A DNA stretch of 64,000 bases, from assembly GCF_014279875.1 (NCBI RefSeq), contig NZ_CP047952.1, positions 1,984,001 to 2,048,000 on the forward strand. The letters run 5' to 3'. The notes under the pieces are model-generated. The model did no database searches. It was not told the origin of the DNA and worked only from the letters and a program-made list of their open reading frames with translations. Source of the stretch: Synechococcus sp. MEDNS5. GTDB lineage: Bacteria > Cyanobacteriota > Cyanobacteriia > PCC-6307 > Cyanobiaceae. The position numbers were made by a program, and so were the translations under genes. Below, piece after piece: positions 60,492-62,147 of the stretch (its first letter is position 1; every line of letters begins with the position of its first letter).

Positions 60492-61274
60492 ATGAGCCAC
60501 GGCCCAATCATCCGCACATGCCGCCGCTTCACGCGATCATCCTTCGCGTTGGTGACCTTGACGCTGCTGGGCTGCAGCCAGCCCGGGGTTGTGATCGGCA
60601 GCCCTCCGAGCAAGCTACCGCTCCCAGCCGCAATCGCAGTTCGCTTCAATCATCGCGACAACAGCCGCTACCGCTCACCTCTGCAAGGCCAGTGGCGCAA
60701 TGGCGACGATTTTGAACGGCACCTGATCGAACAGATCGATGCCGCCAGAAAAGTACTGCTGGTGGCTGTTCAGGAGCTCTCGCTTCCGCAAATCGCCTCC
60801 GCGCTGGTGAGAGCCCACCAGCGCGGCGTGATCGTGAGAGTGGTTCTTGAAAACAGCTACAGCGCACCCTGGGCAGACCTACATGAATCAGATCTGCCAG
60901 CCCACGCCCGTCAGAGGTTGCGACGGTTGGAAGCCTTGGCCGACCTGGATGGCGATGGCGTGTTGACATCACCGGAGCGTCGCGCTGGTGATGCCGTGGG
61001 GCTGCTGCATCAGGGCGGAGTGCCCGTCATTGACGACACCGAAGACGGCAGCCGCGGCAGTGGACTGATGCACCACAAGTTCATGGTGATCGACAAGCGT
61101 TTGGTGATCACGGGCAGTGCCAACTTCACAAGCTCTGGCGTTCATGGCGATGGCGGAGCACAGCGGACGCGTGGGAATGTGAATCATCTGCTCAGCATCC
61201 AAAGCACCGAACTGGCTGCTTTGTTCACAGAGGAATTTCAGATCCTGTGGGGGGATGGCCCAGGCGGTTTATAG
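60492..61274 (+). CDS. Phospholipase-D-like protein, N-terminal half (stop-split gene)
   Basis: 260 residues. Lipoprotein-like signal with L-T-L-L-G-C at about 23-28. One PLD domain with HKD motif H-H-K-F-M-V-I-D-K-R...G-S-A-N-F-T-S. A canonical EF-hand-like loop D-L-D-G-D-G-V-L-T-S-P-E lies upstream of the HKD. The frame ends at TAG 61272 but continues without shift into 61323-61922, which carries the second HKD motif. PLD enzymes need two HKD motifs, so this half alone should be inactive unless it dimerises. Confidence 0.75.
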   Translation: MSHGPIIRTCRRFTRSSFALVTLTLLGCSQPGVVIGSPPSKLPLPAAIAVRFNHRDNSRYRSPLQGQWRNGDDFERHLIEQIDAARKVLLVAVQELSLPQIASALVRAHQRGVIVRVVLENSYSAPWADLHESDLPAHARQRLRRLEALADLDGDGVLTSPERRAGDAVGLLHQGGVPVIDDTEDGSRGSGLMHHKFMVIDKRLVITGSANFTSSGVHGDGGAQRTRGNVNHLLSIQSTELAALFTEEFQILWGDGPGGL

Positions 61275-61322
61275 AACAGTCGCTTCGGACGAGGAAAGCC
61301 GAGCCGAGCGGTTCAAAGCGTG

Positions 61323-61922
61323 ATGGTGGATGGAACACGGGTGGATGTGCTGTTCGCCCCCCACAGCAAGCGGTCGGAAGACCATGGCCTCCAACTGATC
61401 GCACAACACCTGAGCGCTGCAGAACACACCATTGATCTGGCCCTGTTCGTGTTCTCAGCCCAGTCGCTCACTGATGTGCTGGCCGAACGCGTTCAATCTG
61501 GAGTGGCGATCCGGCTGCTGGCAGACCCGGGCTTCGCCAGTCGCTCCTTTTCTGAGGTGCTCGACTTACTCGGGGTGGCACTTCCTGATCGTTTCTGCAA
61601 GTTGGAGAAGGGCAACCGCCCCTTGGCCAAGGCTCTAAAGGGAGTCGGCACCCCTCGACTCGCCCGCGGCGACAAACTGCATCACAAGTTCGCGGTGATT
61701 GACAAGCGCACAGTGATCACTGGATCCTTCAACTGGTCACCGTCGGCCGCCCATCAGAACGACGAAACCCTGCTGGTGATTCACTCACCCAAACTGGCAG
61801 CGCATTTCACCCGAGAGATCGATCGGATGTGGCGCGGTGCAGAACTGGGCATCAGCGAACGCATGCGCCGCAAACTCGAACGGCAACGGGCCAAGTGCGG
61901 CAGTGGTGAAGAAAGAGCATGA
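61323..61922 (+). CDS. Phospholipase-D-like protein, C-terminal half (stop-split gene)
   Basis: 199 residues from ATG 61323, in the same frame as the preceding half; 16 codons lie between TAG 61272 and this ATG. Second PLD domain with H-H-K-F-A-V-I-D-K-R-T-V-I-T-G-S-F-N-W-S. No signal of its own, so if translated separately it would stay in the cytosol and miss its partner. The intact ancestor would be about 476 residues, an exported two-HKD phospholipase/nuclease-like protein. Confidence 0.72.
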   Translation: MVDGTRVDVLFAPHSKRSEDHGLQLIAQHLSAAEHTIDLALFVFSAQSLTDVLAERVQSGVAIRLLADPGFASRSFSEVLDLLGVALPDRFCKLEKGNRPLAKALKGVGTPRLARGDKLHHKFAVIDKRTVITGSFNWSPSAAHQNDETLLVIHSPKLAAHFTREIDRMWRGAELGISERMRRKLERQRAKCGSGEERA

Positions 61923-62147
61923 GCGAACGTCCGCACGCCCGTGTTCATCATTCAGGGAGAAGACGACCGCTACGGAGCAAAAAACCTGGTCGCAGGGCTA
62001 ACACTGTCCGAGTCGATCAGCATGGTCTGGATCCCTGGGGCCGAGCATGGCTTCAAACACCACATCCCCGCACTCAAAGAGGCTGTTGCGGGAGCTTGTC
62101 AGACGATCCTCAAAGCATCCGATCCCCTCGCATCAGAGGCAGAATGA
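61923..62147 (+). pseudogene. C-terminal remnant of an alpha/beta hydrolase
   Basis: In the same frame right after the PLD stop the sequence reads A-N-V-R-T-P-V-F-I-I-Q-G-E-D-D-R-Y-G and W-I-P-G-A-E-H-G-F-K-H-H. These are the acid- and histidine-bearing segments of dienelactone-hydrolase/prolyl-peptidase-like enzymes. The nucleophile serine domain is absent, so this is a truncated remnant of about 70 residues. GTG 61941 could start a fragment. Confidence 0.5.

Follow-up and report, generated by a model that had tools for sequence, protein, structure and literature searches.

A phospholipase D (PLD)-like gene of Synechococcus sp. MEDNS5, located at positions 60492-61922 (+ strand) of the 64,000-nucleotide stretch analyzed here (the window), is divided by a single in-frame amber codon, which raises the question of whether the gene has recently died, whether its two halves are made separately or whether the TAG is read through. 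The initial annotation had left all three options open; as detailed below, recent death is best supported, by single-frame orthologues, selection that has not yet relaxed and independent lesions in other genomes, and the other two options are disfavored. Translation bears out the earlier description of one continuous 477-codon frame, which comprises 475 sense codons and two stops, namely the TAG at codon 261 (61272-61274, + strand), situated between two complete PLD-like domains, and the terminal TGA at 61920-61922. We also agree that the gene is otherwise undamaged, as no frameshift or second internal stop was found on translation of the MEDNS5 copy. At the composition of the window (59% GC), approximately 15 stops would be expected in 476 codons and the probability of encountering at most one is 2.5e-6, so the continuity of the frame is real.

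Each half of the frame carries a nearly full-length PLDc_2 domain (PF13091): Pfam matches cover residues 78-253 of the first half (profile positions 1-132 of 132, E 1.5e-20) and residues 43-186 of the second (2-132 of 132, E 9.5e-24), which places the TAG in a linker of approximately 50 residues, or about a tenth of the gene length. The two domains feature the sequences HHKFMVID ... GSAN (61071-61124, + strand) and HHKFAVID ... GSFN (61680-61733, + strand), which we take to be HKD motifs 1 and 2 according to the patterns HxKx4D and GSxN, and whose His, Lys and Asp columns show no variation across 45 aligned orthologues. The first half further contains a lipobox-like LLGC (60564-60575, + strand), presumably matching the lipobox consensus of a putative export signal, and, within domain 1, a loop, DLDGDGVLTSPE (60936-60977, + strand), that we assume to be EF-hand-like and that has a similar consensus in the 45 orthologues. 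The proposed distribution of an export signal and HKD motif 1 in the first half and HKD motif 2 in the second is thus recovered, the signal being a reading of the sequence. In the PLD superfamily, two HKD motifs meet at the domain interface to form one shared active site, and the presence of HxKx4D and GSxN in both PLDc_2 domains assigns the protein to the two-HKD members of this superfamily, with both domains in one polypeptide in 75 other genomes and separated by the TAG in MEDNS5.

The predicted structure of the WH7803 orthologue (pLDDT 90, pTM 0.88, 45 sequences) is consistent with this assignment. Its best solved matches are, in a tie, a bacterial PLD (7e0m; Z 31.6, rmsd 3.3, 333 aligned residues) and PLD3 (8v05; Z 30.7, rmsd 3.1, 327 aligned), which also rank first in Foldseek, followed by vaccinia F13 (Z 29) and E. 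coli phosphatidylserine synthase (Z 28). Like 7e0m and PLD3/PLD4, the modeled orthologue presents two HKD-bearing PLD domains in a single chain; unlike them, it would be a lipoprotein with an EF-hand-like loop. Identity is 13-20% among the structural matches listed, and the fold alone shows no function. The MEDNS5 chain departs from the superfamily as a whole in being cut by the TAG.

To place the amber codon in its evolutionary context, we compared the locus with those of related genomes. A search with the first half matched 77 of 99 relatives, MEDNS5 itself among them; leaving out MEDNS5 and one genome with a weak match through tail fragments (G055), the gene is a single uninterrupted frame, 457-630 codons long, in all 75 remaining genomes, and the orthologues are therefore not always two separate genes, a condition that the initial annotation had named as refuting. 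Within the genus, which MEDNS5 shares with Synechococcus WH7803, a match to the second half is present in 29 of 31 genomes, and the frame is short only in MEDNS5. In the wider family, the gene is without a match in many members with small genomes. The alignment suggested by the initial annotation covers codon 261 in 21 of 30 rows as well as in G008 and G029, and all of these have a sense codon there, with no TAG conserved among them; six other rows are unaligned at this position, yet in one open frame. The four nearest relatives, G025, G009 (WH7803), G008 and G029, have CAG (Gln) in place of the TAG, and the WH7803 record CT971583 agrees with the G009 sequence at the site. The preceding codon differs as well, being TTA in MEDNS5 and CTG or CTC in the same four genomes. 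Against these open frames the TAG qualifies as a disabling lesion, and we consider it likely that the MEDNS5 gene has been broken very recently and is an early pseudogene resulting from ordinary loss of function.

The pattern of substitutions is consistent with a very young lesion. Among the five closest copies, and with the TAG excluded, changes unique to MEDNS5 amount to 1 nonsynonymous and 12 synonymous in the N-terminal half and to 2 nonsynonymous and 10 synonymous in the C-terminal half, and the pairwise dN/dS of the MEDNS5 copy is 0.127-0.176 for the first half and 0.085-0.150 for the second. Silent changes predominate in both halves, which shows that selection acted on the gene until very recently; no relaxation after the lesion is seen in either half, perhaps because the elapsed time is too short. 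Unrelaxed selection, however, is also expected if the protein is still made or if the TAG is an assembly error. The latter is the main rival explanation, in which the organism would have a sense codon at 61272 and an intact gene: all other positions are intact and bear the mark of past selection, one wrong base suffices, and frameshift-like breaks between MEDNS5 and WH7803 in the genome sample described below indicate that errors or real lesions of other kinds do occur. We nevertheless consider a base-call error unlikely, as the genome is a single contig of 2,435,869 bases (99.98% complete), the neighboring codon differs too, and lesions of the gene are present in five other genomes, one of which has two, although that of G408 may itself be an error. 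The TAG moreover lies within a cluster of lineage-specific, mostly silent changes (61259-61313, + strand), where 10 of the 40 base changes unique to MEDNS5, the TAG change included, fall within 57 nt (permutation p 0.0004 for the maximum over any 57-nt window, the width having been picked post hoc). A comparable cluster is present elsewhere in the gene in G029 (p 0.0006), which suggests that mosaic patches of short length may be a common feature; it is possible that the TAG was brought in by a recombined patch, and no closer donor for it was found among the loci compared.

Recent death is further in line with the fate of the gene across the family. At an E value of 1e-60 or better, the second half is matched in 165 of 300 family genomes, seven of which have an open frame shorter than 440 codons (MEDNS5, G298, G271, G490, G456, G408 and G355). 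The short frame of G355 contains a run of N inside the gene and is not counted, which leaves six of the 165 genomes, MEDNS5 included, each with a different lesion; the search used the intact second half as query, and lesions in that half are under-counted in this figure. G298 has a TAG near residue 68, ahead of domain 1; G271 a frameshift at HKD motif 1; G490 both a TAA and a TGA, one of them inside domain 1; G456 a frameshift or deletion plus a TGA; and G408 a frameshift that coincides with seven consecutive C and may reflect a sequencing error. Short frames in G218, G304 and G273 were discarded, as they lie at contig ends, and so were 12 of at least 13 matches with an apparent internal stop, of which ten proved free of stops when aligned and two had stops at the gene end only. 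In G472 and G539, which are outside the lesion count, the matches end early in the second half. An apparent excess of lesions at the linker was likewise dropped, given the run of N in G355 and the homopolymer frameshift in G408. Separately, a second, partial copy of the gene in G169 (locus L255) is interrupted by a TAG located three codons 3' of the MEDNS5 site. The different lesions in five other genomes, together with the many family members without a match, fit repeated loss of a dispensable gene, and their mixture of TAA, TGA, TAG and frameshifts would fit neither amber readthrough nor a conserved split.

Readthrough of the TAG, through recoding or a suppressor tRNA, would explain why the second half stayed under selection until recently, yet we find little else in the genome to sustain it. 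Of 44 tRNA-model matches in MEDNS5, one below the cut-off, 43 are called as tRNAs by ARAGORN, and none of these 43 has the anticodon CTA, though another tRNA could still read TAG; the genome also encodes three RF-1 family genes. To determine whether other genes are interrupted in the same way, we compared a 464-kb sample, or about 19% of the MEDNS5 genome, with WH7803, using 322 non-overlapping WH7803 ORFs of at least 120 residues that match at 55% identity or more, some shadow frames included. Internal stops at least 40 codons from either end were considered and then required to have silent-rich divergence on both sides, a filter that was added because shadow frames and misplaced starts had dominated the initial screen, and that is strict enough for real cases to escape. 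The only one of 60 internal stops to pass is the TAG of the PLD gene, with no further in-frame TAG of this kind among the 322 ORFs; in the reverse direction, a single stop out of 25 passes, namely a TGA that WH7803 has at codon 66 of a MEDNS5 ORF of 522 codons, which perhaps reflects an upstream extension of the start. The same comparison shows frameshift-like breaks in six rows from five ORFs in one direction and in eight rows from seven ORFs in the other, one of them in a 1019-residue WH7803 ORF. Amber recoding was thus set aside on tRNA content, the single case among the sampled ORFs and the stop types and frameshifts seen in other genomes, and we regard readthrough as highly improbable.

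The position of the TAG speaks, at first sight, for a working split, since both halves are complete one-HKD domains joined by a short linker. Separate translation of the two halves, followed by their association, could make use of an in-frame GTG at 61320 and an ATG at 61323, some 45-48 nt past a stop that lies at the domain border. The second half, however, has no export signal as far as can be read from its sequence and would remain cytoplasmic, apart from an exported first half. Nor do we find a clear Shine-Dalgarno-like site (-5.4 kcal/mol) or a sigma-70-like promoter match; the energy is a weak and non-discriminating measure, given that 803 ATGs have quartiles of -6.3, -4.3 and -2.5 and that the start of the PLD gene itself scores -1.4 kcal/mol. 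Neither a clear start site nor an export signal is seen for the second half by these readings of sequence and start-site energy, and with single frames in the 75 other orthologues we give separate synthesis no more credence than readthrough.

A further alternative accepts the stop as real and holds that the exported 260-residue product still works, for example as a one-HKD homodimer, with only the second half dead. Domain 1 is intact through the last position of the PLDc_2 profile, one-HKD enzymes of this type dimerize, and solved one-HKD relatives include the mitochondrial cardiolipin hydrolase and the endonuclease 1byr. Set against this are the C-terminal half, which is as poor in lineage-specific amino acid changes as the N-terminal half, and the lesions of G298 and G490, whose stops precede domain 1 and fall inside it, respectively, so that domain 1 alone is not kept in these genomes. 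A functional truncated lipoprotein is therefore quite improbable in our estimation, if somewhat less so than the two scenarios above.

We therefore return to recent death of the gene and propose the following course of events. The product of the intact gene would have been an exported lipoprotein in which the HKD motifs of two PLD domains jointly formed one active site, as in two-HKD phospholipases and exonucleases of the PLD3/PLD4 type, with lipid or nucleic acid as candidate substrate, and a very recent nonsense change would have placed the TAG in the inter-domain linker. Translation would now end there and yield a 260-residue lipoprotein with HKD motif 1 only, which, because the HKD motifs form one site across the domains, would represent half the active site. 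The second half probably is not made and, lacking an export signal, would not meet the first even if it were. The gene would be dispensable, and the pseudogene not yet decayed. Bacterial genomes that are otherwise intact are known to harbor recent nonsense pseudogenes as a general class, and the MEDNS5 locus resembles these pseudogenes in its single lesion, intact orthologues, lack of decay and different lesions elsewhere, with no difference beyond the gene itself.

The immediate neighborhood lends this reading some support, as the sequence that follows the PLD gene is likewise a truncated gene. It corresponds to the remnant of an alpha/beta hydrolase gene (Abhydrolase_11, PF20408, E 4.5e-9) at 61923-62147 (+ strand), immediately 3' of the PLD gene, which retains the last 74 of about 250 codons and misses approximately 177 on its 5' side. 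The hydrolase gene is whole in WH7803, nearly whole in G025, damaged in G008 and interrupted by a near-end stop in G029. The distance from the PLD gene to a conserved flanking gene, which we take to be phosphoglucomutase, ranges from 0.6 to 11.9 kb in the loci where both are seen.

Comparison of these loci uncovered a second feature of the gene, namely that in many relatives part of its last 100 codons is repeated downstream as what we call a tail copy. We surveyed 37 loci, about half of them chosen for tails or close kinship and with L166, L169 and L174 left out for having tail fragments where the gene is absent, and found an integrase signal in 11, all 11 of which have a tail copy. The copy starts within approximately 250 nt of the 5' side of the integrase in 10 of the 11, and G020 has two overlapping fragments; tails with no integrase occur at a further four loci (G025, WH7803, G010 and G007). 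The three integrases examined are tyrosine recombinases (PF00589, E 2e-17 to 3e-18). In G002, gene and tail copy are near-identical for about 100 nt from the HKD motif 2 codons onward, with weak likeness just before and none further upstream; G021 and G001 show the same pattern by eye, and in G024, G030, G012 and G005 the two are similar, short of near-identical. In six loci (L158, L159, L160, L161, L163 and L167, from G021, G002, G024, G030, G012 and G005, respectively), the 3' tails of the gene adjoin integrases or integrase fragments. The stretch of the MEDNS5 gene that corresponds to the start of the agreement lies at 61665-61697 (+ strand) and is island-free: neither tail copy nor integrase is present in the 20 kb examined, and the MEDNS5 genome has no tail copy at E 1e-3.

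From these alignments, the HKD motif 2 codons look like the integration site of tyrosine recombinase islands in several relatives. In two genomes from other genera the tails are arranged as if islands were stacked at the same site: in G408 (L259), two integrase-tail pairs are lined up with a third tail, and G055 (L258) has integrases with tails where the rest of the PLD gene is absent. Integrases with approximately 52-56% identity have no PLD tail nearby in the DNA examined from G424, G004 and G417, and a tail is found near a fragment in G393. For four small island proteins (L163:11363-11944, L160:8103-8537, L159:6764-7204 and L161:8837-9478), similarity is confined to the opening portion of a phage DNA primase (phrog_47, E 6e-10 to 5e-15) and to phrog_451, a family of unknown function, with no Pfam match above cut-off for any of the four; a satellite or anti-phage function is possible. 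We consider it quite likely that the PLD-like gene, island-free and broken in MEDNS5, serves as the docking gene of a mobile island family in marine Synechococcus and relatives: a recombinase would insert at the HKD motif 2 codons and provide the gene with a replacement 3' end, restoring it upon insertion, while the old 3' end would be pushed downstream as a tail. Stacked tails would then reflect repeated visits, and the primase-part proteins of some islands would be compatible with elements of the phage-satellite or anti-phage type. A link between islands and lesions was considered and is unsupported, as MEDNS5, G490, G456, G298 and G271 have no tail or integrase in 20 kb and only G408 has both.

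Islands that carry a tyrosine recombinase and occupy a conserved stretch within a protein-coding gene are known from dusA, and the loci in the MEDNS5 relatives resemble them in this respect; unlike the dusA islands, which occupy the 5' end of dusA, they involve a stretch in the 3' part of the PLD-like gene and have tail copies downstream (PMC4482086). We found no description of the PLD-like gene as an integration site among the matches listed in the literature searched, which consisted mostly of titles and abstract openings and left subscription papers largely beyond reach. In the excerpts consulted, a survey of interruption elements lists the phospholipase D gene Cal7507_0570 among the interrupted genes of heterocyst-forming cyanobacteria (PMC4874684), and a preprint places picocyanobacterial integrases near tRNA-Phe and tRNA-Cys (PMC10187409); a term search of the accessible text of a marine Synechococcus island survey returned no mention of phospholipase (PMC2441476).

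Together, these results suggest that the putative exported PLD-like enzyme is dispensable and has been repeatedly lost across marine picocyanobacteria, and the MEDNS5 locus should be annotated as one interrupted gene rather than as two PLD proteins. In the island-bearing relatives, the use of catalytic codons as an apparent integration site is indicative of a source of gene flux in a phototroph that abounds in the ocean.
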